Shown piece by piece: positions 23,701 through 56,303 of a DNA stretch of 64,000 nt; positions within the stretch are counted from its first letter, which is position 1; every line of letters starts with the position of its first letter. The DNA is taken from contig OZ038385.1 of NCBI GenBank assembly GCA_964036045.1, forward strand, positions 35,504,101 through 35,568,100, in the 5' to 3' direction. The notes beneath the pieces were generated by a model. It worked only from the letters and a program-made list of their open reading frames with translations. It was not told where the DNA came from and made no database searches. A program made the translations under genes and the position numbers. Source of the DNA: Eutreptiella sp. 'Long Island Sound 2002' (Eukaryota; Euglenozoa; Euglenophyceae; Eutreptiales; Eutreptiaceae).

Positions 23701-24262
23701 GAAGGGCATCCTTATCAGTTGGAAGGGCATCCTTATCAGTTGGAAGGGCATCCTTATCAGTTGGAAGGGGGTCCTTATCAGTTGGAAGGGCATCCTTATC
23801 AGTTGGAAGGGCATCCTTATCAGTTGGAAGGGCATCCTTATCAGTTGGAAGGGCATCCTTATCAGTCGGAAGGTGGTCCTTATTGGTTGGAAGGGCATCC
23901 TTATCAGTTGGAAGGGCATCCTTATCCGTTGGAAGGGCATCCTTATCAGCTGGAAGGGCATCCTTATCAGTTGGAAGGGCATCCTTATCAGTTGGAAGGG
24001 CATCCTTATCAGTTGGAAGGGCATCCTTATCAGTTGGAAGGGCATCCTTATCAGTTGGAAGCGCATCCTTATCAGTTGGAAGGGCATCCTTATCAGCCGG
24101 AAGGGCATCCTTATCGGTTGGAAGGGCATCCTTATCAGTTGGAAGCGCATCCTTATCAGTTGGAAGGGCATCCTTATCAGTTGGAAGGGCATCCTTATCA
24201 TTTGGAAGGGCATCCTTACCAGTTGGAAGGGGGTCCTTATCAATTGGAAGGGCATCCTTATC

Positions 24263-25685
24263 GACTGTCTGGCTCACATGCTGGACAGTTGTTTTCCTCT
24301 GGGTTCCTTTAGGACATGCCACCTTATGTTGTGTATAGGGTCTTTTACCTTTATGAGTTTGTGTTAATGTCAGACAAGCGTGAATCAGGGGAGGTAGGCG
24401 GCAAGAAGCGGGAAAGAAAGGCCGTGGCGGAGGATCCACGCAAGAGGATCAGGCTCAAGAGGGAGCCCAAGGAGGAGCCGAAGGAGGCCAAGGACCCCGA
24501 GGTCAAGGTCGAGGACGAAGAGATGGCCTCCTCATCGGCCCTACCCGCCCATGCCCCTGCCCCTGCTCCGGCCCCTGCTCCACCCCCACCGGGTCCACCT
24601 GCGCCGCCCGCCCCCATCCCAGCCTTCTGTGTGGACGTCTTCGCCCATGACATGTACGACGTTCGGGGTAGGCGTGACGAGGGCAACCTGTTGGTGGTGG
24701 ACCTTGGTGGTCGCCCGCAAGGTGTCATCAGCCTCCACCTGGGTGTCAGCCGAGCCCTTTGGAGGGACATCCCAGCCCCTCAGCGGCAGGCAGTCGTAAG
24801 GGCCGCTTCCCGTGCAGCCCTGGCCGCCCTCCTACAGCAGTGGGCGCAATATCCCAGGGCCCCTTCACCCCCTCCGCCCCCTCCGCCTGTGTTGTAGCGG
24901 GCCCCCGCACTGTACCTAGCCCCAGGGAGTTCTTGATGCTGACGGTTTCCATCAAGGCCTTTGTGCCCAGGCGGAGGCAGCCCGCCTGTACCAAGGACCT
25001 GCCAGTAAGGGGGTTGTGTTGTGCGTTTTAATTGGTGGCCCCAGGCTCAGTCTTGTCGGGCCGGGGGGTTGATTTTTTGCAGCTGTGCGGGGGGTGGGCA
25101 TTGGTGACAGGGATCACCCTGCAGCACCTCAAAGAATCACAACGGTGGGCATTCCGCCGGCTGTCAGGTTGCGCCTAGTGCCGATGCCTATCTCCCCGAG
25201 TTGCTTTAGTGCCGCGAGTCTCTACGGGCTGTGCCCCCCCGCTTTTTTGTTTTGGCTGTCGGTTTTTGGGCTGACGGCGGTTTTTTCTGCGTCAACGGCC
25301 AGGCCACAGGTTGTTTGGCTTGTGCAGCTCGAACGCCGCCCTTGGTGTGCGGCCTTGGCGTGGTTTACCGCAAGCGTCTGGCCTAGTATGCAGCCAGTCT
25401 GCAGAGAATGCCCCTTGCGAGCGTCCGCTTTTGCTATAGCTGGGGTAGCGGTTAGGATTGCACTGCAGGTGTGCAGCTGAGTGGAGGGCTGTGTGACCCG
25501 GAGGGTCAGTGTTTGTATGTGTCAGGGCGGGAACCAGGGGGGGCGGGAGCACACACGTGAGGGTAAGCCCTAGGCCCTAAGGTATGGCTACCTTATGCCC
25601 GCCAAGACGGTGTGAGGTTGTGGGAATACATACCGCTGGCTGTTCCCGCAATACTCTTGGTGCTTGTGCTGCCGGCATGGGAAAC
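24263..25685 (+). repeat. Long unit L, copy A (1423 bp)
   Basis: Non-satellite block starting GACTGTCTGGCTCACATG and ending GCCGGCATGGGAAAC. The first ~96 bp and last ~53 bp are shared with the short unit S, so L and S look like long and short forms of one family. The middle carries a 193-codon ORF (24316-24897). The following 788 bp (24898-25685) holds no gene I recognise, only an unrecognised 131-codon frame at 25085-25480 that is retained in copy B (40778-41173). I saw about six mismatches to copy B and no indel. It could be a transposon, a gene fragment or a satellite spacer; I cannot tell which. Confidence 0.85.
24316..24897 (+). CDS. Unrecognised 193-aa proline-rich basic protein in unit L, copy A
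   Basis: I do not recognise the family. The product has a short hydrophobic N-terminus, then a strongly charged stretch with many Lys/Arg and Glu (KKRERK and RKRIRLKRE, plausible nuclear localisation signals). An Ala-Pro-rich linker at about residues 80-105 follows, then a compact region of about 75 residues containing FCVDVFAHDMYDV and LLVVDLGGRPQGVISLHLG, and a Pro-rich tail. The start at 24316 gives the longest frame; an alternative ATG at 24367 (MSDKRESGEV) drops the hydrophobic leader and may be the real start. The frame is kept intact in copy B (193 codons, one Gly/Ala difference), but the two copies are young duplicates, so this is weak evidence for coding. A DNA- or RNA-binding role is only an inference from composition. 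Confidence 0.45.
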   Translation: MPPYVVYRVFYLYEFVLMSDKRESGEVGGKKRERKAVAEDPRKRIRLKREPKEEPKEAKDPEVKVEDEEMASSSALPAHAPAPAPAPAPPPPGPPAPPAPIPAFCVDVFAHDMYDVRGRRDEGNLLVVDLGGRPQGVISLHLGVSRALWRDIPAPQRQAVVRAASRAALAALLQQWAQYPRAPSPPPPPPPVL

Positions 25686-25760
25686 GACTGTCTGGCTCAC
25701 ATGCTGGACAGTTGTTTTCCTCTGGGTTCCTTTGGGACATGCCACCTTATGTTGTGTATA
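25686..25760 (+). repeat. Short unit S, copy A, 5' part (cut by LINE)
   Basis: The first 75 bp of the 282-bp S unit, GACTGTCTGG through GTTGTGTATA. It is interrupted here by the LINE and continues at 38340. Compare the uninterrupted copy at 41379-41660. Confidence 0.93.
25753..25760. repeat. Target site duplication, left copy (TGTGTATA)
   Basis: TGTGTATA precedes the LINE and is repeated at 38332-38339. In the empty S unit it occurs once (41446-41453), which fixes the insertion point to the base. Confidence 0.95.
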
Positions 25761-26034
25761 CCGCGTCACCGGGGACCACCAGGGGTTCAAGATCAACGTC
25801 AAGTGGGACCCGGCCACCCCCAACGACAAGAAGCTGGGGCGCACCATCGAACTCTGGCGAGACCAAGCCGGTCGTGAGATGGTCCCCATGCAGCTGTGCA
25901 CCCCCGACACGGAGCACCTCACCGGCACCGAGTACACGGGCGAAGTCCACAATGCATGGGCCCTACCCCAACCCCAGAAGCGGAACCGCAGGGCACCCAC
26001 AGCTCAGGGCGTCATCGACCTCCTCAACGCCTGA
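25761..26034 (+). pseudogene. C-terminal 90 codons of LINE ORF1 (5' truncated)
   Basis: The frame is open from the first LINE base to a TGA at 26032-26034. It reads through to VTGDHQGFKINVKWDP near the junction and ends GVIDLLNA. There is no start codon inside the LINE before this segment; an upstream ATG at 25612 lies in the host L unit and joins by chance. No domain is recognisable in the remaining 90 residues. The segment is in the same frame as the endonuclease-RT frame that follows, separated by one TGA followed by CGG. An intact copy elsewhere would show the missing N-terminal part, where ORF1 proteins usually bind nucleic acid. Confidence 0.6.
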
Positions 26035-26039
26035 CGGGG
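26032..26039 (+). promoter_or_regulatory. Candidate stop-codon readthrough site (UGA-CGG) between LINE ORF1 and ORF2
   Basis: GCC TGA CGG GGC: the stop is followed directly by CGG. UGA-CGG is a known leaky context, used for example by some plant viruses. The frame downstream is open with no ATG until 26176. The octamer TGACGGGG is identical to that at the gag-pol junction at 56296. Readthrough is inferred and has not been demonstrated. Confidence 0.45.
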
Positions 26040-29000
26040 CCAGGGCCGGACACGGCCCGCCCCCCCAACTACCGGTCCCCAGAAACCGGCGCCTGCGGAA
26101 GCCCACGCCCGCATCAACATCCTCAACGAGCCCGCGGTCACCTACGACCCCACCAAGGCCGCCACACTGCAAGCCATGCCCGGGCCGCACCCCCAAGGCG
26201 CAGACCTCCTGGGGTTCCTGGAGCAAGCCCTCCGCAAAGCGGACCAACCCGAACCAGCACCAATCCTGGACCCAGAGGGGAACAAATATCACGCCCACTG
26301 GGAACGGGGGGTACCCCTCTACCACAAGACATCGGTCACGGTACATGCCCACCCCGACCTCGGAGTGGATGGTCGCCTCGGGGCGTACGAGTGCGTGGGG
26401 CCCGGATGGCAGCTAAACGTGCTGCTCACGCACGTCCCGTTCGGGGAGGAGACCAAGGACTTCCTGGACACCCTGAGCCTGGCGTACCGCCGACTCTCCC
26501 TCCTGGCACCCACCATCATCATAGGCGACCTAAACGCCGCTCCCACCGACGACGACCGCACCGGCCCACCCACAGCCACCGACATAGCTGTCCGGGACGC
26601 CATGCACCAGCTGGGCCTCACCGACCTCACGGCAGGGCTCACCGGCACACCCTCCCATTACCCCCACCAAGCCGGCACCCACCCATCCCGCATCGACACG
26701 TGCTACGGGGACCCAACCACGGTGCGCGTCCACGAAGCAGCCTACGGGGACCTCCCGCCCACAGGCACGGGCCACCGGCCCCTCTACATCGACCTCATCA
26801 TCCCCGACCTACCCCCACCCGCAGCCACCCTGCCAGACGACACCCTCCCACCCACACTGCAGTTCCCGGCCGAGGACGACCACGGCGCCTGGCACAGGTA
26901 TAACAGGGCCCTACACGCCATCCTACGCCGCCCGGGTGCACCGACACTCACCACCGCCATGCGCCGGGCGGCACAAGCATGCGGCATGGAGCGTGACACC
27001 AACCACACGGGAGCACCACCGGACCTCACCCTCCAGCAACTCGTCCATGACATCTGGACCACGAAAGGGGAACTCGCCACCCTGCTACACCCCAGCACAC
27101 CGGAGGCACGAGACCGGGACGCCCACCTCCGTGCGCTCCTCACCACCCGCCGCCACCAACTCCAGGAATGGCACGCCCACCGCATAGCGGCAGCAGCCCA
27201 GGAACGCGAAAGATACGGCAGAAACGACACGCCGTACAAGTCCCTACGGTACGTCAGCCGCATCCTGGAGGACACGGGGCGCCGTACCATCCACGCGGTC
27301 CGCACCCCCGAAGGAGGCCTCACCAATGACCCCGACGCCGTCCTCCAGGCAGTCCTGGACAGCTTCCAGGCGCAACACGGAGACGCCCTCCCCGAGCTCG
27401 ACCCCCACACCAGAAACACCATCCGCGAGCATGTGCCCAGGGTCTTCAACCGGGAAAAGCGGCGCGCCATCGAACACGACCCCTTCAGCATCTCAGAACT
27501 GCAGCGCGCCCTGGACCGCCTGAAGAAGGGGGTCGTACCCGGCGTCGACGGTTTGCCGGCCGAAGCATACCAACGTCTCACCCTGCCCATCAAACGCCGC
27601 CTGGCAGCCTGCCTGTGGGACATCGTCACGGGCGCCACGCCCATCCCCCCTGAGTGGGCCAACCTGGTCCACCCCCTCTACAAAAAGGGGGACTGGGCGC
27701 AGCCGGGGAACTGGCGGCCCATAGTATGCGCCACCACCGAGGTCAAGCTGGTGTGGACGCTCATCCTGGGCCGCATCGCGCCAGCGGTCTTCGCCCACGT
27801 GCCCGCCAGCATGTGGGGGGCCATGGCCGGCAGGTCCCCCCACGAGGCCATCTTCCTCCAGGACACCGCACTGGACATGAACCCCTACGAGATGATCATC
27901 GCCTCCCTCGATGTCCAAGGCGCGTTCCCCCACGCCCCACACCGGCTCTTCACGGAGGTATGGGATGCCATGGGCCTCCCATTCCTATCCTTCATGACCG
28001 GGTACATCCAAACCCGACTCTACGCCGTCATCACGGCCGCGGGCCTCACCCCCTGGACCGGCACAGACAGCGGGGTCCCCCAGGGAGGCGCCGAAGGCCC
28101 CTTCCTCTACCTCCTCGTCACCCTGCCACTGGCATTCGAGCTAGCACGGGTATACCCGGGGTACGCCCCATACCCGCTACGGTCCCCCCTCATCAACTTC
28201 GCAGATGACAACCTCCTCACTACAGCCACCCGCCACCGCGACCCTGAGAACGCAGGGCTACCAACGACCACCGAACAAGCGTCCGCCATTCTCCAACTCA
28301 CCACAACCTACCTAGACGCCCACCAGCTCCTAGTGCACCCCCGCAAATCGGTCGGGCTGGCCGACGCCGAGACCCCCACCCCCCACATCCGGAAAGGCGA
28401 ACCCCTGCACCTGGAAGACACCACAGTCCACCTGGGAGTCACACAGGCCACGCGGCACCACCACATCACACTCCCAAGCAAGCTAGAAGAGCGCCTCGCC
28501 CGGCTAACCCAAATTGCCAGGGGGGACCTCCTGTCTACGCAGGGCCTGGCGTACTTCATGGAAGCAGTGCTCAACGCGGCCATCGGGTACCAAGCCCTGC
28601 ACCTCCCGCGCCCCCAAGACGCACTACGCCACGCTCGACAACAAGTGACGAAGGCATGGGCGCAACACGGAGGCTGGCCCACGTCTTTCCCCAAGGAGGC
28701 CATGATGGCCCACTGGCGCTACTACGGAGACAATACGGGCGCCCTGGTCGACATGGCCTATGCCAAACACGCAGCACACCTCCTACACAGGGTAACACAC
28801 AACCACCAACCAGAAGTTCGCGAGGCGGCGGCCATGCGCATAAAAGAAGCGCAAATGGCCCGCAACACCTGCCCCCGGTGGATACTGGCACAACACGGCG
28901 TCTCCACCCCCGTGGGCACTGGCATCTGGGCCCAGCTACAACTCCTCCTACCGCACCACACGCACGCCATCCTGACAAACCACCACTGCGACCAACAGGG

Positions 29001-30669
29001 GCCACTCGTGGCCACACACACCGACATCCACCGACACCCGGCAGGCGAGGTGGACACCCTGCGCCTCGTAGGGGCCACCATCACCATAGTGTATATCACC
29101 CCAACACAGATGCAGATCATGGCCCAATGCGACGCCCACCACGCCCCGTTCCTTTCCGACCCACAATGGCCGGCACGCCACGTCTTCCAAGCGTACCTCC
29201 GCGCATGTGCTACGAAGGCAGGGCGCGACATGCCGGGGCCCAAGGACATCGACACGGCGTACACAGCCTTCCAGCGCCAGCACCCCCGGCCCCGCCTGAG
29301 CGAACACGAGACCCCCAACGACGGCGGCACGACGCAGGGGGAGCCCACCCCGTCAGCCGAAGGCTGGACACCACCCACCATCCTGCTGCTAGCACCAAAC
29401 GGCCACAAACATGTAACCCGCACCGTCCAGCGACACCATGCCCCCTGGTCCATCCCCAAACACAATGCACCGGAGACCGATGTACCACCAGTCAGACACA
29501 GTGACCAGGGCATACCACGCACGTGCTGGCACTGCGGCCCGGCAGCCCTCGACACGCCGTGGCCCCTGCTGCACCTCATCTCCACCCACTACCACACCCC
29601 CACCGCCGCCGCCACCGCCGACCAGCAGGCATGGCTCTCCCCCTGGTTTCACACGGTACCCCCGGACCACCCGGCGCACGTAGCCTGGACCCGAACACCC
29701 ACGGCGACATGGACGTTCACCAACGAGCAGGCAGACCCAGACAGCGTAGCCATGGAGTACGACCGCTGCGACCCACACCGCGCAGGACCTCAGGAGGCAC
29801 CCATGCGCCCCCTACAGCACAAATGCCCCACCCTCCGCGGCGACAAGGACGACACGGAGCGGCGACAGACCATCACGTGCCAGAAATTCCACCCCAATAC
29901 GGGATACCTCTTCCACCTGATGTACGCGTATATCACCCAGGGACGCCCAGACAGGGGCCTCCTCCGCCTCACCCCACGAGCCCAGGCCATCATCACCCAG
30001 GGAATAGGCGTCTATGCAGCGCCACTACTGCAACCCACGCAAATCACCGCCAGAACCACCCAGGGGAACCCCATCTACGTCTATCACCCCACAGCAATCG
30101 CCCGCCTACCCATACCCAGCGACACCGACATCATCTACTTCACTGACGCATCCGGCACCCAGCAACGCACCCCCACGGTCGGTTGCGCCTCCGTGCGCAT
30201 CACCCGGCGCGCGGACGGCCTCCACGTGGAACACCACACCGGGACCACCATCTTTGGGGCGTCCTCCCACGGCGAACTGCGCACCATGGCAGACGCCGTC
30301 ACCGCCACACCGCCACCCACGACGGCCCGGCCCCGCAACATCTGGGTAGTCGTGGACGCCACGGTCGACATCCACCTCACCAGGCGCCTTGCGAACCTAC
30401 CCCTCCACAAAGCACTCGATTCCGGCCTCACCACACAAGCGTTGGGACTATGGATGGCCTTCAAGGGCATGCACCCCCAGGACGCCCTACACATCGTCAA
30501 GCAGGAGTCGCACCGCTACGCATACGGCAATGGACGCGCAGACACGCAGGCCAAACACCAGAACACAAACCACACCCCAGGGCTCGAACGCGTGCGACTG
30601 GACACCCCACACCACAGCCACCTGCAGCACCTGCCCCCGATACCCCTGGCCGCACAGCCCCCCCAATGA
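26035..30669 (+). CDS. LINE ORF2: endonuclease-reverse transcriptase-RNase H
   Basis: Enzyme for target-primed reverse transcription. Numbering is from the first in-frame ATG at 26176 (1497 residues). Endonuclease: GDLN with D118 and N120, SRID with D174, and GHRPL with H200. The N-terminal part of this domain, with NILNEP (likely the conserved Asn) and LGFLEQAL (likely the catalytic Glu, E16), starts upstream of that ATG, in frame back to 26035. Starting at 26176 would therefore cut the domain, so I give the whole open frame. Reverse transcriptase, about 440-700: LDVQGAF with D579, SGVPQGGAEGP, and FADD with D677/D678. RNase H, about 1318-1470: D1324, E1367, D1394 and D1456, all four acidic residues present. 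The frame ends at TGA 30667-30669, touching the ATG of the next frame. The usual C-terminal zinc finger of such proteins lies in that next frame. The enzyme motifs look intact. Confidence 0.9.
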   Translation, partial: RGQGRTRPAPPTTGPQKPAPAEAHARINILNEPAVTYDPTKAATLQAMPGPHPQGADLLGFLEQALRKADQPEPAPILDPEGNKYHAHWERGVPLYHKTSVTVHAHPDLGVDGRLGAYECVGPGWQLNVLLTHVPFGEETKDFLDTLSLAYRRLSLLAPTIIIGDLNAAPTDDDRTGPPTATDIAVRDAMHQLGLTDLTAGLTGTPSHYPHQAGTHPSRIDTCYGDPTTVRVHEAAYGDLPPTGTGHRPLYIDLIIPDLPPPAATLPDDTLPPTLQFPAEDDHGAWHRYNRALHAILRRPGAPTLTTAMRRAAQACGMERDTNHTGAPPDLTLQQLVHDIWTTKGELATLLHPSTPEARDRDAHLRALLTTRRHQLQEWHAHRIAAAAQERERYGRNDTPYKSLRYVSRILEDTGRRTIHAVRTPEGGLTNDPDAVLQAVLDSFQAQHGDALPELDPHTRNTIREHVPRVFNREKRRAIEHDPFSISELQRALDRLKKGVVPGVDGLPAEAYQRLTLPIKRRLAACLWDIVTGATPIPPEWANLVHPLYKKGDWAQPGNWRPIVCATTEVKLVWTLILGRIAPAVFAHVPASMWGAMAGRSPHEAIFLQDTALDMNPYEMIIASLDVQGAFPHAPHRLFTEVWDAMGLPFLSFMTGYIQTRLYAVITAAGLTPWTGTDSGVPQGGAEGPFLYLLVTLPLAFELARVYPGYAPYPLRSPLINFADDNLLTTATRHRDPENAGLPTTTEQASAILQLTTTYLDAHQLLVHPRKSVGLADAETPTPHIRKGEPLHLEDTTVHLGVTQATRHHHITLPSKLEERLARLTQIARGDLLSTQGLAYFMEAVLNAAIGYQALHLPRPQDALRHARQQVTKAWAQHGGWPTSFPKEAMMAHWRYYGDNTGALVDMAYAKHAAHLLHRVTHNHQPEVREAAAMRIKEAQMARNTCPRWILAQHGVSTPVGTGIWAQLQLLLPHHTHAILTNHHCDQQGPLVATHTDIHRHPAGEVDTLRLVGATITIVYITPTQMQIMAQCDAHHAPFLSDPQWPARHVFQAYLRACATKAGRDMPGPKDIDTAYTAFQRQHPRPRLSEHETPNDGGTTQGEPTPSAEGWTPPTILLLAPNGHKHVTRTVQRHHAPWSIPKHNAPETDVPPVRHSDQGIPRTCWHCGPAALDTPWPLLHLISTHYHTPTAAATADQQAWLSPWFHTVPPDHPAHVAWTRTPTATWTFTNEQADPDSVAMEYDRCDPHRAGPQEAPMRPLQHKCPTLRGDKDDTERRQTITCQKFHPNTGYLFHLMYAYITQGRPDRGLLRLTPRAQAIITQGIGVYAAPLLQPTQITARTTQGNPIYVYHPTAIARLPIPSDTDIIYFTDASGTQQRTPTVGCASVRITRRADGLHVEHHTGTTIFGASSHGELRTMADAVTATPPPTTARPRNIWVVVDATVDIHLTRRLANLPLHKALDSGLTTQALGLWMAFKGMHPQDALHIVKQESHRYAYGNGRADTQAKHQNTNHTPGLERVRLDTPHHSHLQHLPPIPLAAQPPQ

Positions 30670-31359
30670 ATGCCCGAGGACACGCCGTACACGGATCGAG
30701 ACAAGCAGTACCACTACCCCACACCCATCCAGCAACTCGCCGCCACACTGGGCCACCCAGCAAACACCGAACTCCTCCGACGCCTCGAAAACTCCGTCCA
30801 CACCCCCCTCTACTACTCCGCCCTGCGCCCGGATAGCCTCCCAGCACACCTACAAAAGCCCCGACTCCAGCTCGCCCTCGAACAACTTCCCCTCCTCACC
30901 CGATACCACCGATGGTATACGCGCCGCTCGATCCACGTCCCCGCAGGACACACCAAATGCATCTGCAGCCACGCGGAAGAAGAAACGTGGGACCACTTCA
31001 AGGCGTGCTCCCTGTACAGGGGACTGGACACCCTCACAGACTGGAACCCAACCCACACCATCGCACAGCACGCCGGATGGCTGGCGCAGTCCCCGGCGAC
31101 CCAGCAACTCACCACCGTCCTCAAGCAGACGGAGGTGCTCGAGGCAGTCCGCAGGGGACTCGTCCCCACTGCCGTCTACACCTTACTACGCACCCACGCG
31201 GAGGACCCCCAGGCCACGGCGGCACACATGCAGCGAACGGCCGTTGCCAAGACGGCGGAGCAGCTCACATACCGCACCCACAAATACCTGCAGCATGCGG
31301 CAACCCTGCCACCAACAGACCAAGCCCACCTCCTCAAACTCCTGTTCTACCAACCATGA
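30670..31359 (+). CDS. LINE ORF3: 229-aa protein with C-terminal RT-type zinc finger
   Basis: Starts at the ATG directly after the stop of ORF2 (TGAATG) and stays in the same frame. It contains a Cys/His cluster, C97, C99, H109, C113, in CICSHAEEETWDHFKAC. This resembles the zinc finger that normally ends LINE reverse transcriptases and helps bind template RNA. The rest is alpha-helix-like and unrecognised. The simplest reading is that it is the C-terminal part of the ORF2 polyprotein, made either by readthrough of the TGA or by termination-reinitiation at TGAATG. A recent nonsense mutation is the alternative. It ends at TGA 31357, followed 12 bases later by a second in-frame TGA at 31372. 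Confidence 0.7.
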   Translation: MPEDTPYTDRDKQYHYPTPIQQLAATLGHPANTELLRRLENSVHTPLYYSALRPDSLPAHLQKPRLQLALEQLPLLTRYHRWYTRRSIHVPAGHTKCICSHAEEETWDHFKACSLYRGLDTLTDWNPTHTIAQHAGWLAQSPATQQLTTVLKQTEVLEAVRRGLVPTAVYTLLRTHAEDPQATAAHMQRTAVAKTAEQLTYRTHKYLQHAATLPPTDQAHLLKLLFYQP

Positions 31360-31374
31360 GAACCTACCCCGTGA

Positions 31375-34300
31375 CATACCAACACCGAACCCCCACCACG
31401 TCTACACACCGTCCACCGGGCACAGCACTGGCACAGCACACACGGGCGCCACAGGCACCGCACACGCTCCCACCAGCATGCGCGCGCCACCAGCCCCCAT
31501 CCCCCCACGCCGCCGTCCGTCCACAGGTACCACCAACCACCAGCCACCGCATGCCCCCTCTGCGCTCGCCAGCGGCTACCACAGACAGCCCTGCCCTGCA
31601 ACCCAGACCACTGGGTCTGCCTGGGAGCCGCGCACCGCCTCACCCACTGCCCCCACTGCGGGGACCTCAACCCCCGCCACCGCGAACGGCCCGCGGCCCC
31701 AGCAGCACCCCCCCCCGCCAGCCACCCCAGCTTCTTCGGGTACCTCACCGACACTCTCCGGGACCAACTGGGGGGGTACTACGTGGCGGACGCGGCGGAC
31801 CACGCATGGGCCATAGCCGTGGCCACGGGCAACACACCCCTGCCCCCCCACAGCCCACCCCTACGCCACAGCGGAGGCGGCTTGAACGTGGCGGCCCGCC
31901 ACATCCTCCTCGCCCTATACCTCCACCACCGAAACCTACACCTCCCAGACCCACAACTCCCGGCCCCCCAAGCAGCAGCCCTGACGCCGGAAGCGTGGGC
32001 CGACACGGCACCAGAGGAGATAGCAGCCTACCTCCGAGCCACGTGCCGCCGGTTCGCAAACGCCCTCGGCCGACGGAAGGGAACACCTTACCCCCTCAGC
32101 GCACTCCTCTACCCGGCACACCACCCCCACCCCACACAAAGGACACCCCCGGAGGGCTGGGCGTCTTTCCGGGACACCCACCTGGCCGCCCCCGACGAGG
32201 CCACCGCCACGCGGATGAGCCTCACGGACCAGGAGGCCTACGTCAGAGGCCTCAAGACGAGCCTCCAAGAGGCACACCGCTGGCGCGCCCGCTCCCCGTC
32301 GCCCCCGCGGGGACAGGGGGGTTCACCCGCCCCCGACACCCACCAGGCCAAGAAGACCAAGGGGCACCGGCACCAGGGGGCCCGCCAACGCGCCCGCCAG
32401 CAGGGCGCGACGCCCCGACCAAGGCCCGGGTCCAGCCACACCGCACCGCCCCACGCCCAGACCCCCGGGGCACACCAGCAACACCACCACCACCAACGCC
32501 CACCGCCACCACCTTACCGCAGCACCCAAACCCTGCAGCCCAGTCAGCCACCACCGCCCACACACGTCCACACCATGCCAGGACCACCGTACGCGCAGAG
32601 CCAGGGGACATGGCACCACCAACACCACCACCGCGCCCCCGTCCCTCCCAACCCCTACCCCCTAATGCCCCCAAGCTACAGCGGCCCCCACCAGCTACAT
32701 CCCCACCACGCCCCAGCACAACCAGGCCCCGCGAACCACCCACCCCACATAGCGCACATCACCGCACCACACCATCACGTGTACCACCACCACCAGCCCC
32801 TGCCGCCACACCCACCAACGCCGGGGTACCACACACAACCGACACACCCTCCACACCACCACCACGCGGTCCAGCACCACCCGCCGCCCCCGCTACACGG
32901 ACCCACGGCATACGAGCCACGGTACACCCCCATGGACCCGCGAGGAGCCGCGCACGCACACCGGCAACACCAGGACCGAGTAGGGGCGCCCCACCACCAC
33001 CAACAGCCCCCCCACCCACACCCCATACCAGCGAGCACCATCCACCAGCAGCCACCCATCACATACGGACCACAGCCCCACCCGGGGGCTCATGCGGTCG
33101 CCTCCCACCCGCGGCCCGGCACCGCGACCAGTCAAGAACCGCAAGGGCCACACGGCGCACACACGCAACACCCACGCGACCCACAGGGCCGCCCGGACCC
33201 CCAGCCGGCACAACACCCACCCCCGCCCCCCCCACCCCACCACCACCAGCAGCCCCCCCACCCACACCCCATACCAGCGAGCACCATCCACCGGCAGCCA
33301 CCCATTACATACGGACCACCGCCCCACCCGGACGCTCATACGGCCGCCTCCCACCCACACCCCGGCACCACAACCAGTCAGGAACCGCAAGGACCACACG
33401 GCGCACACACGCAACACCCACACGACCCACAGGGACGCCCAGACCCCCAGCCAGCACAACACCCACCCCCGCCCCCCCCACCACCAACAGCGCCACCCCC
33501 ACACCACCCCCCCCCGCCCCCCCCCCGAGACCAGGCCACGGACACAACACGCGGCAGCCAGCACCAACCAATCGATGTCGATGCCCCCGCCGACACATGC
33601 CACCGCGAATCCCCCCTCCCGCGGCCGCCGCAAGAGACCCCATCACCGGACCCCGCGCGCGACAACGATGACCATCCCCCCCAACCCACACCACCCCCCC
33701 CATCACACCCCGCACCACCAGTCGCCGCACCGGCCGAGCCCTACGCCCTGCACAACCCCGCAGCGGTACGGCAGCACCTCCGGGGGGTCGGGGAACAGGA
33801 CGTCGTGCTGTACCTCCGCACCTCCGGCACCAGCACCCCCATCCGGGCGGCCACCCTGGTCCAGGCGGCCACCCTGGGGGAAGGCGTCAGAGACTTCCTC
33901 TTCGACGCCTTCCTCCACGTCGCCCGACACGAGCGCCCCCCACGCGCCACCCCGGACGGCGAGAGCCCGCCCCCCACGGGGAGCCGGATCTGGGTACCCC
34001 CCATCGACTGGGGGCGACACCTGGTCGGACACCCCGTGCCAGAGCGGGACAGCACCCAGGGCCGCACCCGCTACCGCGAGCCCAACATGGCCCACCCCCC
34101 ACCCGACGCCACCCCCAACAGCACCAAGGAGTGGGAGCGGGAAACATGGGTGGCCCGGATGGCCTCCCTAAGCAACTTCCGGCACCACGTCCCGGGGGAC
34201 ATCCCCACCCCCGAAGAGCAGCAGCCAGCCCCCTCCACGTACATGACCCTCATGTACAATCTGCACTACACCCTCTCCACCACCACCTACCACGCACCCA

Positions 34301-34830
34301 CAGACCACTGGGTGGTACACGGCACCGACTCCCTCCTCCCCGCCGACTACACCCCCCCCACACACAACCCGGGCCCCGACACGTACGCCAGGGGGGAAGA
34401 CCCGGACGACCCCCACATCTGGGGCACGTGGGAACCCGAATCCCTGGACGCGCTGCTCTCCATCCGCAGCAGCTACCAGGGCCTTGGTAGGGCGATGTAT
34501 TGCCTCGCCAAGTGGACCCAACGGACCTGGGGGATCCCCGCGGACCGATGGGTGTGGGTGGTCACGATGCGCCCCCAGCAGATGGAAGCCCCCCCAAACC
34601 GCGGGGGACCCACCCCCCCACGCCCCACCACCCCACAACTATGCCCGTACATGGTGGCAGCCCGCCTCATGGCGCTGCTATGGCCGGGCCCCCACACCCC
34701 CACCCAAAACTACCCCCACCTCACAGAGGGGGACATGCCCGGCATCCAGCGATGCTTCTTCGAGACCCTCGACTACCTCCAGCAGACACACCCCCGCGTC
34801 CTGGAGCAGATATGGCCACCCCCCGGGTAA
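31375..34830 (+). CDS. LINE ORF4: RING-like, His/Pro-rich protein of unknown function
   Basis: Open frame of 1151 codons after the double TGA, in the same frame as ORF2 and ORF3. It has no ATG near its start; the first start-like codon, GTG at 31783, would remove the most distinctive motif. Numbering from 31375, eight zinc ligands are spaced as in a cross-brace finger: C60, C63, C75, H79, C82, H87, C92, C95. A helical region follows (about 115-300). Then comes a very His/Pro/Gln-rich stretch with a duplicated 82-residue segment. Last is a globular-looking C-terminal third with AVRQHLRGVGEQDVVLYLR and DHWVVHGTDSLLPADY, which I cannot assign. The composition of this frame is protein-like while the other two frames read as Arg/Pro/His shadows. 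A RING-like finger could mean ubiquitin ligase activity or nucleic acid binding; this is speculation. It ends at TAA 34828-34830. Confidence 0.6.
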   Translation, partial: HTNTEPPPRLHTVHRAQHWHSTHGRHRHRTRSHQHARATSPHPPTPPSVHRYHQPPATACPLCARQRLPQTALPCNPDHWVCLGAAHRLTHCPHCGDLNPRHRERPAAPAAPPPASHPSFFGYLTDTLRDQLGGYYVADAADHAWAIAVATGNTPLPPHSPPLRHSGGGLNVAARHILLALYLHHRNLHLPDPQLPAPQAAALTPEAWADTAPEEIAAYLRATCRRFANALGRRKGTPYPLSALLYPAHHPHPTQRTPPEGWASFRDTHLAAPDEATATRMSLTDQEAYVRGLKTSLQEAHRWRARSPSPPRGQGGSPAPDTHQAKKTKGHRHQGARQRARQQGATPRPRPGSSHTAPPHAQTPGAHQQHHHHQRPPPPPYRSTQTLQPSQPPPPTHVHTMPGPPYAQSQGTWHHQHHHRAPVPPNPYPLMPPSYSGPHQLHPHHAPAQPGPANHPPHIAHITAPHHHVYHHHQPLPPHPPTPGYHTQPTHPPHHHHAVQHHPPPPLHGPTAYEPRYTPMDPRGAAHAHRQHQDRVGAPHHHQQPPHPHPIPASTIHQQPPITYGPQPHPGAHAVASHPRPGTATSQEPQGPHGAHTQHPRDPQGRPDPQPAQHPPPPPPPHHHQQPPHPHPIPASTIHRQPPITYGPPPHPDAHTAASHPHPGTTTSQEPQGPHGAHTQHPHDPQGRPDPQPAQHPPPPPPPPTAPPPHHPPPPPPRDQATDTTRGSQHQPIDVDAPADTCHRESPLPRPPQETPSPDPARDNDDHPPQPTPPPPSHPAPPVAAPAEPYALHNPAAVRQHLRGVGEQDVVLYLRTSGTSTPIRAATLVQAATLGEGVRDFLFDAFLHVARHERPPRATPDGESPPPTGSRIWVPPIDWGRHLVGHPVPERDSTQGRTRYREPNMAHPPPDATPNSTKEWERETWVARMASLSNFRHHVPGDIPTPEEQQPAPSTYMTLMYNLHYTLSTTTYHAPTDHWVVHGTDSLLPADYTPPTHNPGPDTYARGEDPDDPHIWGTWEPESLDALLSIRSSYQGLGRAMYCLAKWTQRTWGIPADRWVWVVTMRPQQMEAPPNRGGPTPPRPTTPQLCPYMVAARLMALLWPGPHTPTQNYPHLTEGDMPGIQRCFFETLDYLQQTHPRVLEQIWPPPG
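32992..33483 (+). repeat. In-frame 246-bp tandem duplication in ORF4
   Basis: Two adjacent copies, 32992-33237 and 33238-33483, encode the 82-residue segment containing HHHQQPPHPHPIPASTIH and PQGRPDPQPAQHPPP. The period is a multiple of three and both copies stay open in the ORF4 frame. They differ by scattered substitutions. Confidence 0.88.
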
Positions 34831-36237
34831 CCCACGTGCCCGCACAGCCGAGACAACACCGCCACGCCAGCACCAGCACGCACGGATCACCAGGGAAAAC
34901 GCGCGCACACGCCCGATGCCCGAACCTGCACCCGCGTTCTCGCTACTTACAGGACCCAGCATCATACGCCCGCCCCCGAGGCCCGGGACCCTCCGCCGTC
35001 TCCCGCGGCCCTCTCCTCCGCCTCCGACTCCACAACCTCCACCACCACGACCACCTCATCCACCACCACCACCACCACGTCCTCATCCAGCACTCCACCC
35101 CCCAGGCCGCGGAAGACACCTCCCAAACGGGCCTCCAAACCCGCCCCCACCGCGAGCAGCCCCACCGCCGCCAAAGCCCACGCCCCGGCGAAGCCCATAC
35201 CCACGACCCAGCCGAAGCCCAAGGCCGCCGCCAAAGGGCAGCCCGCAGCCAAGCCCAAGCCCAGGCCCAAACCCGGCGCCACGACGGCAGCTCGGGCCCG
35301 GCCCCCCCAGGATGTCCTCTACGACATCCGGCCCCAGCCGTCCCAGGCCCGAAGGCAGCAGCACCCAGCGCGGCGCCCCCCCACCGTCACCGACACCACC
35401 GCCGCCACCTTCATGGCGGAGCGCGCCGCGGCCGAAGCGCGGCGCGCCTCGTCCCACCACCTCCCAAAGCCCGCACCCCGGGCCCACGGACCGCTCCAGG
35501 GTCCACCAGCAGCGCCCACGCCCCCCTACCGGCCCCCGATGACAGCCCACATGCAACGCATGCCCCACTACCGCCGCCGCCACGAATCCCCGCCCAACCC
35601 CGAGGCAGAGACCGTACGCGCACACCCGCGGGTCCACATCCGCGTGCACCCCCACTCCCCACGCACCCCCACGGAACAGGACTACGAGGAATCCCCCAGG
35701 CCCGCCACCGCCGCCGGCCCCCACGACCCCATCACACCCACCCACGCACACTCCTCCGCCCAAGACCGCAGGCCCGCCCAGGAACAGTGGTGGCAGCGCT
35801 GGACCCACACGCAGCTCTGGGAGCTGCGGAAGTGGGCCCGGGGAGAGCCCTCCCTCGAGGGCCTGGTCCATCGGCCCCGCAAGGGGTCGGTGGAAAACTG
35901 CCGCCTCCGGCCGGCGGGGGGGTGGATGCCGCAGGCCGCATGGGAAGCCATGCTGGCCGATGCGCTCCACCCCCTGGGAGTCCACCCCCGCAACCTCCCC
36001 GCGCCCCAGGACCACCCGTACGTCCTCAGGCGCCTGCGGGAGACCCTCCAGGAAGCACGGCGAGACGGCATCCGCCTGTGGGACATCACCCAAAGCCCAG
36101 CCCCGCACGCACACACCCCCTCACCACCCCACAAGCGTCGGCGCACCGACACCGGCGACACCCACAACACCCCAGAAGCCCTGCGCGCCACACAACACGA
36201 CGCGCCTGACCCCCCGGCCAGCGGCGCCGCCATCTAA
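34831..36237 (+). CDS. LINE ORF5: basic Ser/Thr/Pro/Lys-rich protein
   Basis: Open directly after the ORF4 stop (GGG TAA CCC), again in the same frame, for 468 codons. The first ATG is only at 35413 (274 codons from there). The part upstream of that ATG is low-complexity and basic: Ser/Thr runs, then Lys-Pro-Ala-rich sequence like histone H1 tails. The part after it ends in a more ordinary domain with EQWWQRWTHTQLWELRKW and YVLRRLRETLQEARRDGIRLWD, and a likely nuclear signal PPHKRRRTD near the C-terminus. I do not recognise the family. A role in binding the RNA or chromatin is suggested only by composition. The frame closes at TAA 36235-36237, and I see no further coding on this strand in the LINE. 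Confidence 0.5.
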   Translation, partial: PTCPHSRDNTATPAPARTDHQGKRAHTPDARTCTRVLATYRTQHHTPAPEARDPPPSPAALSSASDSTTSTTTTTSSTTTTTTSSSSTPPPRPRKTPPKRASKPAPTASSPTAAKAHAPAKPIPTTQPKPKAAAKGQPAAKPKPRPKPGATTAARARPPQDVLYDIRPQPSQARRQQHPARRPPTVTDTTAATFMAERAAAEARRASSHHLPKPAPRAHGPLQGPPAAPTPPYRPPMTAHMQRMPHYRRRHESPPNPEAETVRAHPRVHIRVHPHSPRTPTEQDYEESPRPATAAGPHDPITPTHAHSSAQDRRPAQEQWWQRWTHTQLWELRKWARGEPSLEGLVHRPRKGSVENCRLRPAGGWMPQAAWEAMLADALHPLGVHPRNLPAPQDHPYVLRRLRETLQEARRDGIRLWDITQSPAPHAHTPSPPHKRRRTDTGDTHNTPEALRATQHDAPDPPASGAAI

Positions 36238-36987
36238 CCCCGTTATCCAGCACAGCACCACCACGGGGCGCCACGCCAGGCCCCGCCCAGAAGTCACCAA
36301 ACAAACCGGACGCCGAAGGAAGCCAACGCACACGATAACGAGCACCACTACGCCCAAAGGCGCCGAACCCGGGCCCGATACCGTGGGCTCCTCTCCACCC
36401 TCAGCACGACACACACGTCACTGACGTCACTCCTCCGCCATGCCCCCTCCCACGCCACCGCCCCGCCCCCCCCCCCCCTCCCGCCGCACGTCCCCACGCC
36501 GCCCAGCACCCAGCCCCACACACTGCGCCACAGCATCGCCCTAGTCCGGCTCCTCCACCATCGCGGCGCTTGGCACCTCACAGTAGACCGCCGTCCTATG
36601 GTCCCGCTCCCCCCAGCACCACTCCCAGGGCCGCACCCGACCCACGCCGTGTTCGCCCCCACGTCGCGGGCCGCGGACATCCTCCCGCTCCCCACCACCA
36701 CCCCTCCCGGGCATCGCATACTACTTACCGCCAACCCCTCGGTCCTCAGTGAGGTCCCCATCGGGCACGCCGACGCCCTGCACGTGCGCCCGCAGCTGCC
36801 CAACCTGCACGCTGCGTACGCCCCCGGCGCGCCCGCCGACCCCTCCGTGTGGGACTCCCAGTGAGGCCACCGGCCAACGGCCGGCCCACAAGCACCACCC
36901 CGCACCCGCCTCGGGCGCACGACTCCGTGGACGCCGCTACCCACACGCCCGGCCCCGCGCAACCGCCTAACCGAGCCAGAACACAAG

Positions 36988-37350
36988 CACAAATCAAACC
37001 CGAGCCACACCCCGAAACCGCTAACCCTTGACTCCTAACCAAACCCGCCGAGGGAACAACGCAACCACAGCCCACACCCACAGCCCACACAGCCGCCTAA
37101 CCAGCCAGCACCAGAAGCAAAGAAACACCACACCAAATCCACCCTGACCCAAGCCAAACCGGGCCAAAGCCCCAACACAAATCAAACCCGAGCCACAACC
37201 CGAAACCGTCAACCCTTGACTCCAAACCAGGCCCGCTGAGGGAAATGCGTAGACACAGCCCACAGCCACAGCCCACACAGCCGCCTAACCAGCCAGCACC
37301 AGAAGCAAAGAGACACCTAACCAAACCCACCCTGACCCATACCCATGTAC
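36988..37350 (+). repeat. 188-bp imperfect tandem repeat in LINE 3' region
   Basis: CACAAATCAAACCCGAGCC recurs 188 bp apart (36988 and 37176). Both copies continue through AACCCTTGACTCC and CAGCCGCCTAACCAGCCAGC. The second copy is incomplete, and a fragment of the end of the unit also precedes the first. Confidence 0.88.
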
Positions 37351-37481
37351 ATCAGGACACGCGAGCCGCACCCCTGGGGCGCGACCGCCGCCACAGCACC
37401 GGCGACACACGCCAGAGGACACAACGCTATAGCACCGCCGCACCAGCTGCCCATGCCTGTGCCTGCAGTGTACGCGCGCCT

Positions 37482-37518
37482 CTGTTTTCCTCTTTTTTGT
37501 TTTTTCTTTTTCTTTTTT

Positions 37519-37555
<37 letters not shown>
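37482..37555 (+). other. Polypyrimidine tract joined to a 36-base A tract
   Basis: A T-rich stretch (37482-37518) is followed by C and then 36 A residues (37520-37555). The two halves are nearly complementary and could fold back. The A tract lies 776 bp inside the element and not at its end, so it is not the insertion-site tail. It may be a former poly(A) end. Confidence 0.85.
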
Positions 37556-37557
<2 letters not shown>

Positions 37558-37585
37558 CAGGGCACACGCGCACCGCACACGGCAC

Positions 37586-37755
37586 GCACACCTGTAAACA
37601 GGAGCCCAGGGGCCCAGGACACCGCACATGCAACACAACACACCGAGCGGGCACACCGGTGAACAGGAGCCAGCTGGCCCAGGACACCGCAGACGCACCA
37701 CAGCAAACCGCGCGGGCACACCGGTGAACAGGAGCCCAACGGCCCAGGACGCTAC
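37586..37755 (+). repeat. 65-bp tandem repeat in LINE 3' region, about 2.6 copies
   Basis: GCACACC(T/G)GT(A/G)AACAGG starts at 37586, 37651 and 37716, exactly 65 bp apart. Each unit then has GGCCCAGGAC. The third copy is partial. Confidence 0.88.
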
Positions 37756-38331
37756 ACACACGTAGGGCAGCCGAGGGACAGGAAAGAACCAATACCCCAT
37801 GGGTCGGACGCACTGGGGCGACCCAGCCGACCCACCGGGCCAGTGGCAGGAGCGGTACTCCAAAGCCACTGGTCCGAGCCCGGCCAGGCTGCATCGAGGA
37901 CCATGGCAAACGTCACCCGGAGCCATGGAAGCAACCGGTGACAGGCGAGCCGGTACACAGTCCAGGAGGGGGTCACCTGCCAAGCAGAGTGGCCCCGCAA
38001 CTCAAGCCACAAGGGTGAGGCGGTCGTACCGTAGACAAGCGGGAGCAATACCCCTCGTGGTGAGAGATACTCCACACGGCTGGGCAGCCCCCCAGAGCTG
38101 CCGCCCAAAGGAGGGGGCATGTGGCCCTACCCATGGACACATGTGGGGACACCCTCCCACCTGGGACACATGGACCGGGTGGCCGCGACAATGCCTTCCC
38201 AAGCACATGCGGGAGCGGCTCAAGAGGCACCTGACATAGGGCAGTGGGAGGGACAGGACGTCCCCTTGGTAAGACCTTCTTCCTGCAATGTCAAAGGAGG
38301 CATCCCGAGCTCCCGAAGATACCTACCTACC

Positions 38332-38339
38332 TGTGTATA
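38332..38339. repeat. Target site duplication, right copy (TGTGTATA)
   Basis: Matches 25753-25760. It directly follows the LINE's terminal TACCTACCTACC and is followed by GGGTCTTTTACC, as in the uninterrupted S unit. Confidence 0.95.
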
Positions 38340-38546
38340 GGGTCTTTTACCTTTATGAGTGCCCACCCATACCTAACCCGCCCAGTTCCTATTGTTCAGA
38401 CCCTTTGGGTTTGAGAGCTTAAGTGGATGGACTTGCTGCCCTTTGGGGCTGTGACAGAACTGTCCCGCTGGCTGTTCCCCGCTTGCTGTTCCCCCGCTGG
38501 CTGTTCCCGCAAAACTCTTGGTGCTTGTGCTGCCGGCATGGGAAAC
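38340..38546 (+). repeat. Short unit S, copy A, 3' part
   Basis: 207 bp that complete the 282-bp S unit after the LINE and end GCCGGCATGGGAAAC next to satellite block 2. It contains three near copies of a 15-bp sequence, CCGCTGGCTGTTCCC, at about 38464-38512. Confidence 0.93.
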
Positions 38547-41378: not shown

Positions 41379-41660
41379 GACTGTCTGGCTCACATGCTGG
41401 ACAGTTGTTTTCCTCTGGGTTCCTTTGGGACATGCCACCTTATGTTGTGTATAGGGTCTTTTACCTTTATGAGTGCCCACCCATACCTAACCCGCCCAGT
41501 TCCTATTGTTCAGACCCTTTGGGTTTGAGAGCTTAAGTGGATGGACTTGCTGCCCTTTGGGGCTGTGACAGAACTGTCCCGCTGGCTGTTCCCCGCTTGC
41601 TGTTCCCCCGCTGGCTGTTCCCGCAAAACTCTTGGTGCTTGTGCTGCCGGCATGGGAAAC
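41379..41660 (+). repeat. Short unit S, copy B (282 bp, uninterrupted)
   Basis: Starts GACTGTCTGG immediately after the GGGAAAC that ends L, and ends GGGAAAC next to satellite block 3. It shares its first ~96 bp and last ~53 bp with L and has its own middle of about 130 bp. It represents the pre-insertion state of the LINE target. Confidence 0.93.
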
Positions 41661-53593: not shown

Positions 53594-53599
53594 AATAAA
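53594..53599 (+). terminator. Candidate polyadenylation signal AATAAA in LTR
   Basis: AATAAA in CAAATAAAAGCTTTTC, about 100 bp before the inferred LTR end, a suitable place for the R/U5 region. Confidence 0.5.
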
Positions 53600-53796: not shown

Positions 53797-56298
53797 ATGG
53801 ATCCAGGAAGAGTGGACGCCGAGGTGAAAACAGCGCCAGCGCCAGAGACACCGGCAAGGCCGGCGCCTGACGCTGTACCTTCCGTGGAGCCCTTACATGG
53901 GCCAATGGATACGGCGGAGGACTCCTTGGATGGCCTCCAGACGGCCTTTGGGGCCCTGTCGGTGAAGGAAATGGTCTCTCAGCCTCAGCCTGTGAAGAGG
54001 AAGAGAGGAAACGAGAGCGAGAAGGATGCTGAAGAAGGAGCAGACGAAGGAGAGGAGCAAGGGCAAGACCCGACGGATGTCCCAACCTTCGAAGGCGCAC
54101 CAAGCGCTTCTGGCCTCCATGCATCACCCTCTCCCATTACCACCACACTCCCAGCCGCCGCTACATCCACTTCCACAACCAACCAGCCTATGGCAGAGGG
54201 CACAGGCTTTACTGGCATGCCTCACTACCCCGCCTATGGCATGGGCCCACCTACCACTGCGCTCCTTGAGGCAACTACTGCCAGTGAGCCGGTGGCTTCC
54301 AGCTCTGCGCCGCGTTGGTATGCGGCTGACCATCCCCATCCACTCCACGCCACGGGAACCTACATGGAAGTTCCTGGGTATGCTCCTGGGTGTACACCTG
54401 GGTATGCACCCCTGAGTGGGTTGAGGAAAGGACCAGAGTCTCTGGGAGGCAGGAGTAGAGGATCGGGAAGATCCTCCAACAGGTCCCTGACGCGGTCGGA
54501 GATCAACGAGGTGCTCCAAGGAGCCACTTCGAAAATCGTGAGCGACCTCACGCAAGAGATCAGGGAGAAGCTGCAGCCCCTGATGATCCCGTCCCATGTG
54601 TCACCTACGACAGTGGGGATGTCACCCCACCGAGTACAGGCTAACCACCTGGCGGCAGGGTTGACGAATACCCTGGGGAGCCTGAGGAGCCGACCGATGC
54701 CGACTCCTGCAGCAGTACCAAGAAGCCCATTCGTCCCGAGGACAGCCCAGCCGCCCTACAGTCACGTGACGAACTCGACGAGGGCCGAGCTGGACCAGCT
54801 GGGGCTGACAGCCCTAAGGGCTATGGTGGACGTGGAGCCTTATGGCTCCAGTGATCTAGGCGGAGACCCCTCCGTTGATGGGCCGCCTTCGATGACTTCT
54901 TCTTCGCCATCGGATGACGAAGACCCTGAGGACCCCGAGGACTCCAAGGGTAAGAAGAAGAAGAAGAAGAAGAAGAAGACCCGACGCCCTGAAGGACGCC
55001 GAGCTCAGGAGGCGAAGGCTATTGCCACCTCCAAGATAGTGGTGAACCTGCCTGAATTCACAGGCAAGGACCTCAGCGAGTTCGCTGAGAACTTTGGCCG
55101 GTTCCTACGACTGACCGGCCAAACCCACGCGAGTGGGCGAGTGAAGTGCGACCTGCTCCTGCAGTGCTGCAAGACGAAGTACCTGGAGAAGCAGGTCAGG
55201 CAGATCGTCACCAACTCCGCCACCTTTGCCGACGTGTTGGTTGCCCTGGAGAGGCAGTACCCAACCTACGAGACCGACCTCTCCATCAGGGCCGAGATCC
55301 AGAACCTGCCCGTCCTGCCCAACAACCCTAAACCCGGCAGGGTCTCCGAGCTGTTGGCGGACCTGGACCACTGGGCTGGACGACTGACGCCCGGTTCCTA
55401 CAGCAGCGACGACCTGCTGTTTTGGTTGTGCTCCAAGCTCCCCCGTGAGCTATGGGACGAGTGCCGTCTGACGGCTGAGCGCAAGGCTAGATCCCTCCGC
55501 TACGAGGATCTATGCGTGCTGCTCCTGGAGATGGCGCTGGAGAAGGAGAGCGACCAACACCTGAACCACTACCGTCCTGGCGGTGGAGGTTCTGGAGGCA
55601 AAGGGTACCAAGGGTCCCGACCTGGGCAGGGGACTACCCCCAAACACGCCCACGCCCGCCTAATGGAGAACGTGAAGGAGCTATTCTGGTGTGATGCCAG
55701 AGATGAACAGGGCCACCTGCAGCATGCCTCCGACTGCGAGCAGCGAGACTGCTTTGTTGTCCAGGGGAAGCAGCAGGAAAAGATCACCGGTGCCAAGGTG
55801 AAGATGCCGGATCATTACCGCTGCACCATCACGTGTGCATTCTGCGGTAAGCGGAAGCACTATGAGGACGAGTGCTACCATAAGCAACGCCTATCGGCGA
55901 AGCTTAAGGGGGAAGATCCTGGCAAAAGCTCAGGCAAAGGTGGAGGCAAGGCCAAAGGCAACGACTCCGGCAAGGGCAAGTCGAAAGGACGTGGTCAAGG
56001 TGGTCAAGACAAGGGTCAAGGCGGACGAGGAGGAGGCGCTAATCGCCAGAACGACAACAAGAACAAGGACAAGAACGGAGGTAACCCCAACCCTAATCCA
56101 GGGGGGAACTCCGAGCCCTCTGGAGGGCAGTCTGGACCTACCACACGCTCACAGACGCAGGCCCAGCAAGAACAAGGAGCCAAGCGTGAGCATGAAGGTG
56201 GTGACGACGGCAACGCCAAGAAGAGAAGCCGTTTCATGAGGATGGCCCGCAAATTGCCGAACAAGGGGTTCGAGGTGACCTGTCCCGCGGAGTTCTGA
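53797..56298 (+). CDS. gag: Gag polyprotein
   Basis: 833-residue structural protein of the retrotransposon particle. The N-terminal ~380 residues are low-complexity (Pro/Ser/Thr/Glu-rich), followed by an uninterrupted lysine run at about 387-396. A capsid-like helical domain, about 409-587, begins IVVNLPEFTGKDLSEFAENF and contains LLFWLCSKLPRELWDECR. A CCHC zinc knuckle follows with C680, C683, H688 and C693 (CAFCGKRKHYEDEC), then a Gly/Lys/Asn-rich basic tail. The start at 53797 is the first ATG after the primer binding site, about 100 bp downstream. It ends TTC TGA CGG in the same frame as pol. Confidence 0.88.
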   Translation: MDPGRVDAEVKTAPAPETPARPAPDAVPSVEPLHGPMDTAEDSLDGLQTAFGALSVKEMVSQPQPVKRKRGNESEKDAEEGADEGEEQGQDPTDVPTFEGAPSASGLHASPSPITTTLPAAATSTSTTNQPMAEGTGFTGMPHYPAYGMGPPTTALLEATTASEPVASSSAPRWYAADHPHPLHATGTYMEVPGYAPGCTPGYAPLSGLRKGPESLGGRSRGSGRSSNRSLTRSEINEVLQGATSKIVSDLTQEIREKLQPLMIPSHVSPTTVGMSPHRVQANHLAAGLTNTLGSLRSRPMPTPAAVPRSPFVPRTAQPPYSHVTNSTRAELDQLGLTALRAMVDVEPYGSSDLGGDPSVDGPPSMTSSSPSDDEDPEDPEDSKGKKKKKKKKKTRRPEGRRAQEAKAIATSKIVVNLPEFTGKDLSEFAENFGRFLRLTGQTHASGRVKCDLLLQCCKTKYLEKQVRQIVTNSATFADVLVALERQYPTYETDLSIRAEIQNLPVLPNNPKPGRVSELLADLDHWAGRLTPGSYSSDDLLFWLCSKLPRELWDECRLTAERKARSLRYEDLCVLLLEMALEKESDQHLNHYRPGGGGSGGKGYQGSRPGQGTTPKHAHARLMENVKELFWCDARDEQGHLQHASDCEQRDCFVVQGKQQEKITGAKVKMPDHYRCTITCAFCGKRKHYEDECYHKQRLSAKLKGEDPGKSSGKGGGKAKGNDSGKGKSKGRGQGGQDKGQGGRGGGANRQNDNKNKDKNGGNPNPNPGGNSEPSGGQSGPTTRSQTQAQQEQGAKREHEGGDDGNAKKRSRFMRMARKLPNKGFEVTCPAEF

Positions 56299-56303
56299 CG
56301 GGG
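56296..56303 (+). promoter_or_regulatory. Candidate UGA-CGG readthrough site between gag and pol
   Basis: The gag stop TGA at 56296-56298 is followed by CGG GGA, and the same frame stays open for the whole of pol. No ATG lies between the stop and the protease active site, so pol needs readthrough (or an unusual start such as the GTG at 56329). The octamer TGACGGGG is the same as at 26032 in the LINE. Confidence 0.65.

Follow-up and report, generated by a model that had tools for sequence, protein, structure and literature searches.

A conserved UGA-CGG between ORF1 and ORF2 of a Eutreptiella LINE is a candidate stop codon readthrough site

Introduction

In the type II stop codon readthrough of RNA viruses, UGA is followed by CGG or CUA, and often by a stem about 6–12 nucleotides (nt) downstream (PMC11166343). 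In the long terminal repeat (LTR) element Tca2 of Candida, gag and pol share a frame, and pol needs a bypass of the one UGA between them; the sequences flanking this UGA drove no readthrough in yeast (PMC2194720). Stop suppression in another LTR element, SIRE1, is cited in PMC7385966. Among long interspersed nuclear elements (LINEs), SART1 uses an overlapping stop and restart, by which expression of the second open reading frame (ORF2) is tied to the stop of the first (ORF1) (PMC5972666), while for LINE-1 restart or a novel type of initiation was proposed for ORF2 (PMC5972666, PMC5009743). We analyzed a LINE copy of Eutreptiella sp. 'Long Island Sound 2002' within a stretch of 64,000 nt, in the following called the window (GenBank assembly GCA_964036045.1, contig OZ038385.1, positions 35,504,101 to 35,568,100, forward strand), in which ORF1 and ORF2 share one frame and are parted by a conserved UGA followed by CGG. 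In the titles and abstract openings of the papers among the matches listed, which cover few subscription papers, we found no report of readthrough at the ORF1 stop of a LINE.

Results

Conservation and context of the ORF1 stop

The features bearing on the expression of ORF2 are the following (positions in the window).

25761..38331, + strand: LINE copy of 12,571 bp, 5′-truncated in ORF1, delimited by a flanking duplication and an empty target
25762..26034, + strand: end of ORF1, its last 90 codons and stop, to which 15 ORF1 relatives align, ending at the same stop
26032..26037, + strand: TGA-CGG, the ORF1 stop, conserved and with the sequence context of type II readthrough
26043..26058, + strand: stem of 6 GC base pairs with a 4-nt loop, 8 nt 3′ of the TGA (fold prediction)
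26098..26175, + strand: first strand, presumed catalytic Asn (26125–26127) and first helix of the endonuclease, preceding ATG 26176 (structure model and fold match)
26035..31359, + strand: ORF2, with APE-like endonuclease and reverse transcriptase (Pfam; relative P0001) and, by eye, RNase H and zinc finger

Relatives were collected in three protein searches, yielding 43 for ORF1, 37 for ORF2 and 13 for the downstream ORF3. The ORF2 and ORF3 searches scored only the 7991 and 7978 candidates, respectively, with the most shared words. The length windows were about 341–1085 amino acids for ORF1, about 633–2014 for ORF3 and up to about 2700 for ORF2, which could miss complete ORF1-ORF2 fusions. No ORF2 relatives were found in the viral, phage and prokaryotic collections. 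We kept alignments at the ORF1 end only if they exceeded 50% identity and 25 residues, and readings at stop sites only from ungapped matches with at least 60% identity, at least 20 residues and at least 45% local identity; other rows were dropped. The gapped rows of P0005 (at 26032) and P0021 (at 30667) represent frameshifted copies and were excluded from the in-phase counts. Member counts of the relatives are those of the database.

TGA 26032 is the end point of 15 of the 43 ORF1 relatives (243 members). In 13 of these the alignment reaches 26031; in P0060 and P0079 it stops at 26028, with one further residue in each. Other relatives read across the site in a different frame. All eight next-frame relatives have Asp over the TGA, corresponding to NGA and a pyrimidine, and in seven of them Gly follows, giving NGA-YGG. 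P0081, in the third frame, reads T-N-A-C. Except in P0081, such readings do not fix the first base of the stop, but together they fit TGA-CGG. TGACGG is found at a single one of the 44 TGA triplets in the LINE, the one at this junction. With UGA followed by CGG, in-frame coding onward and a stem 8 nt downstream, inside the described range of 6–12 nt (PMC11166343), the site resembles type II readthrough sites of RNA viruses, but it is a candidate site at the ORF1/ORF2 junction of a LINE, and its stem is not statistically exceptional.

The same arrangement occurs a second time in the window, outside the LINE.

56296..56301, + strand: TGA-CGG between gag (53797–56298) and pol (56299–61227) of a Ty3-like element

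This young Ty3-like LTR element (52881–64000) has LTRs that are 99.6% identical over 499 bases inside the window. Its gag and pol share one frame and are parted by a single TGA followed by CGGGG; the first ATG of pol lies past the protease Asp-Thr-Gly, with 49 residues ahead of it. The octamer TGACGGGG is present once on the + strand of each of the two elements, at the junction, and TGACGG makes up 4 of the 209 TGA triplets of the Ty3-like element. The presence of one octamer in unrelated elements of a single genome suggests that they converged on a leaky signal specific to this host.

The endonuclease begins upstream of the first ATG of ORF2

The first in-frame ATG, at 26176, is located 47 codons past TGA 26032 and inside the endonuclease. 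In a structure model whose fold matched the L1 endonuclease, the first strand and the presumed catalytic Asn lie between the stop and this ATG. Because the core of the endonuclease starts ahead of any ORF2 ATG, ORF2 most likely needs readthrough of the UGA at 26032. In SART1 and other stop-start LINEs, ORF2 expression likewise depends on the ORF1 stop, as predicted here, but there stop and start overlap (PMC5972666), whereas here no AUG overlaps the ORF1 stop or lies close to it.

One programmed readthrough step, ORF1-UGA-CGG-ORF2, is therefore the best explanation of this anatomy, and a probable one. In the LINE family, ORF1 and ORF2 would occupy one frame, parted by the single conserved UGA and CGG. 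Most ribosomes would stop at UGA 26032 and release the ORF1 protein, while a fraction would decode the UGA, and the resulting fusion of ORF1 and ORF2 would carry endonuclease, reverse transcriptase, RNase H and zinc finger. The analysis shows the anatomy, the conservation of the stops and the lack of an ATG before the endonuclease core, whereas the occurrence of readthrough and its efficiency are inferences.

The main rival, which involves no readthrough, is a start of ORF2 at a non-AUG codon downstream of TGA 26032 or an AUG-independent initiation as proposed for LINE-1. In-frame near-cognate codons are available (ATC 26113, ATC 26119, AAG 26155 and CTG 26167), and novel initiation is considered likely for ORF2 of mammalian LINEs (PMC5009743). 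Only the two ATC codons, however, precede the presumed catalytic Asn, and they lie inside the first strand; moreover, such a start leaves the conserved CGG context, the common frame and the octamer shared with the gag/pol junction unexplained. We consider this possible, if unlikely.

Several observations weigh against a programmed readthrough step. P0011 alone has Trp at the 26032 site and reads through, and in P0069 the next residue is Lys (NGA-YAA). The stem was matched by 28 and 12 of 200 shuffles, hence its stability is not exceptional, and the gag/pol junction of the LTR element has no unusual structure, 118 and 95 of 200 shuffles folding as well. The endonuclease model is of low confidence at its start, with blocks of 50–72 pLDDT (predicted local distance difference test) over residues 1–40. 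The codon bias of the short segment 26035–26175, taken alone, is not significant (chi-square p 0.12). In the lineages P0020 and P0026, an ATG lies just before the endonuclease Asn; an AUG start thus exists elsewhere.

A private stop inside ORF2

In a preliminary description of this DNA, the LINE had been read as one 10.5-kb frame cut by five in-frame stops at domain boundaries, from which a polyprotein made by stop readthrough or by serial termination and reinitiation was suggested. The frame from 25762 indeed contains only TGA 26032, TGA 30667, TGA 31357, TGA 31372 and TAA 34828 before the final TAA 36235. The second of them differs from the others.

30667..30669, + strand: private nonsense mutation inside ORF2, sense in all 18 readable relatives

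The relative P0001 (469 members; 1727 amino acids) runs uninterrupted from ATG 26176 to 31356 and is 98.5% identical to ORF2, with 26 of 1727 positions different, TGA 30667 among them. The 17 in-phase relatives, P0013 and P0033 included, have 16 Trp and one Arg at this site, and the off-phase P0021 implies YGG. The Trp is kept even in families of 43–51% identity. Judged by these relatives, TGA 30667 is a private nonsense mutation of the LINE copy. It is no border between two proteins, since RNase H and zinc finger form one ORF2 in the relatives, and reinitiation at the TGAATG of 30667 was rejected, the TGA being a mutated Trp codon. As a side observation, residues 1–306 of relative P0012 are an N-terminal stretch that carries a CCCH-like motif and is fused to ORF2 sequence, probably due to an insertion into another gene or element.

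The end of ORF2 and the 3′ ORFs

Downstream of ORF2 the following features were delineated.

31357..31374, + strand: TGA 31357 (end of ORF2) and TGA 31372, based on eight ORF2 relatives ending at 31356 and on off-frame readings
31375..34830, + strand: ORF3, with codon-position bias, a RING-like Cys motif close to the start and no in-frame ATG before 32215
35413..36237, + strand: ORF4, from ATG 35413 to TAA 36235, codon-position bias p 2.7e-9
36238..36864, + strand: ORF5, in the same frame to TGA 36862, first ATG at 36598, T by codon position 15/37/15, p 2.8e-5

An ORF2 end exactly at 31356 is common to eight relatives (543 members) out of 37; P0013 ends about 7 codons beyond the position of TGA 31357 and P0021 about 12 codons before it. 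Read off-frame, TGA 31357 is covered by Glu (GAR) in 5/5 cases and one compatible Met-Arg row, TGA 31372 by Asp (GAY) in 5/5 and one further compatible row (three readings from rows for that stop, two from rows for 31357), and TAA 34828 by Asn (AAY) in 3/3 and one compatible row. By these readings, the three stops are old. The triplets after them (GAA, CAT and CCC, respectively) include no known leaky context, and TGA 31357, backed by TGA 31372, and TAA 34828 look like the ordinary ends of ORF2 and ORF3.

Six relatives extend across ORF2 and ORF3, and four run from ORF3 into the DNA beyond 34831; therefore, ORF3 to ORF5 belong to the LINE family, as putative additional and unusual 3′ ORFs. With other APE-type LINEs that possess an RNase H, the element has in common the endonuclease, reverse transcriptase, RNase H, C-terminal Cys/His finger and target-site duplication; it differs by the ~5.5 kb of largely coding-like sequence (ORF3–ORF5) from TGA 31357 to TGA 36862.

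The phase of ORF3 relative to the ORF2 stop is as in the window in four of six readable copies (P0015, P0019, P0022 and P0038), but shifted in P0031 and P0041, whose length near 31381 differs by about 4 bases. Hence, the absence of frameshifts is true of this LINE copy but not of its relatives, and an ORF2-ORF3 readthrough polyprotein is not family-wide. We found no intact ORF3 relative of about 633–2014 amino acids; the ORF3 matches were decayed copies with varied frameshifts. This speaks against a single long and conserved ORF3, or else it mirrors gene calls made in other frames.

A serial polyprotein, in which all five stops are leaky or restart sites, would accommodate the common frame of ORF1 to ORF5 in this copy, the lack of an ATG in the first 280 residues of ORF3 and the presence of TGA 31357, TGA 31372 and TAA 34828 in other copies. 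Against it stand the private TGA 30667, the codons after the three 3′ stops, the phase shift in 2/6 copies and the lack of an intact ORF3 relative; the other copies do not show the same stops in the same phase. We regard it as very improbable.

Coding signal along the frame

Three stretches earlier checked codon by codon (26035–26175, 31375–31782 and 34831–35412) are open as described, but this is weak evidence because the DNA is C-rich and T-poor. The three + frames contain 1, 0 and 1 stops in 25762–26175, 2, 0 and 0 in 31357–31782 and none in 34831–35412, so that one further frame, two further frames and all three frames, respectively, are open. As a better test, we used a codon-position score trained on ORF2, in 300-base steps. 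Frame 1 scored best in each step of 25762–34761 except 33262–33561, a Pro-rich tandem repeat in which frame 2 scores higher, and again in 35362–36861; frame 3 was slightly higher in 34762–35361, and beyond 36862 no frame stands out. In chi-square tests of composition by codon position, p was 1.7e-3 or smaller in each tested segment up to 36861 apart from 26035–26175, and 36865–37500 showed no difference (p 0.84). The ATG-less beginning of ORF3 is also biased (p 1.7e-3 for 31375–31782 and 4.2e-12 for 31783–33000), while 34831–35412 has a codon-position pattern unlike that of ORF2. The frame had been thought to end at TAA 36235; this stop is present, but the coding signal runs on in the same frame to TGA 36862.

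Two further readings and one model were set aside. An alternative code with TGA for Trp was rejected, the frame having 4 TGA versus 64 TGG and ORF1 and ORF2 relatives ending at TGA positions. An ATG overlapping TGA 31357 was discarded as ORF3 start, since the frame that it opens, frame 3, scores low by codon position. A structure model of the ORF3 C-terminal domain (pLDDT 34) was not used.

Insertion, age and surroundings of the LINE copy

The LINE copy is bounded by a target-site duplication.

25753..25760, + strand: target-site duplication, 5′ copy, TGTGTATA
38332..38339, + strand: target-site duplication, 3′ copy, TGTGTATA

An empty copy of the target, without insert, is located at 39900–41674 in the same window. 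The LINE flanks (1554 and 229 bases) are 99.6% identical to it, with an 8-base overlap, TGTGTATA. This duplication shows 0.4% divergence and the insertion came after it, so the copy is young. It is 5′-truncated, as ORF1 relatives extend far 5′ of 25761 and only the last 90 ORF1 residues are left. The lack of LTRs, the 8-bp target-site duplication, the 5′ truncation and the presence of an APE-like endonuclease (PF03372, 33.1 bits) and a reverse transcriptase (PF00078, 55.7 bits) within one ORF characterize an APE-type LINE; RNase H and the C-terminal Cys/His zinc finger were assigned by eye.

These findings bear on the view that all five stops reflect random decay of a dead copy. It is true for TGA 30667, one of the 26/1727 differences from P0001, but the copy was inserted after a duplication whose two parts are still 99.6% identical, and other copies also have the stops at 26032, 31357 and 34828. 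Altogether four of the five stops are seen in other copies, and we consider decay as the common cause extremely unlikely.

Between a run of 36 A at 37520–37555 and the 3′ end of the LINE are 776 bp, so that the element may have an internal poly(A) and further 3′ sequence. Tandem repeats within the LINE have units of 246 bp (32989–33482), 188 bp (36988–37339) and 65 bp (37586–37750). In the relatives P0043 and P0049, the reverse complement of the 3′ repeat region (37534–38126) is joined to forward ORF3, as in nested or inverted insertions. Around the LINE, large arrays of a 21-bp satellite (AGGGCATCCTTATCAGTTGGA) occupy 1–24262, 38546–39955 and 41660–52881. A non-satellite unit is present twice (24262–25760 and 39960–41453; 99.6% identity) and contains a 193-codon ORF at 24316–24897 for a Lys/Glu-rich, then Pro-rich protein.

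Discussion

Of the readthrough polyprotein originally suggested, one step out of five is supported, at TGA 26032, while the serial five-step scheme is not. The ORF1-UGA-ORF2 layout would be that of gag-pol readthrough. Stop suppression is reported for env of SIRE1. Tca2 likewise places one UGA between two ORFs of the same frame (PMC2194720), but it is an LTR element and not a LINE.

An extended version is that a young subfamily is leaky at several UGAs, with the strong CGG context leading to ORF2 and low-level readthrough of 31357 and 31372 leading into ORF3; the unrelated retroelements with UGA-CGGGG would then imply an unusually permissive host. We consider this improbable.

How LINEs make suitably small amounts of ORF2 protein is a long-standing question, for which restart coupling or an unknown type of initiation are the described answers (PMC5972666, PMC5009743). 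If the single readthrough step at UGA-CGG is true, a LINE that sets its ORF2 output by a retrovirus-like leaky UGA would represent a different solution.
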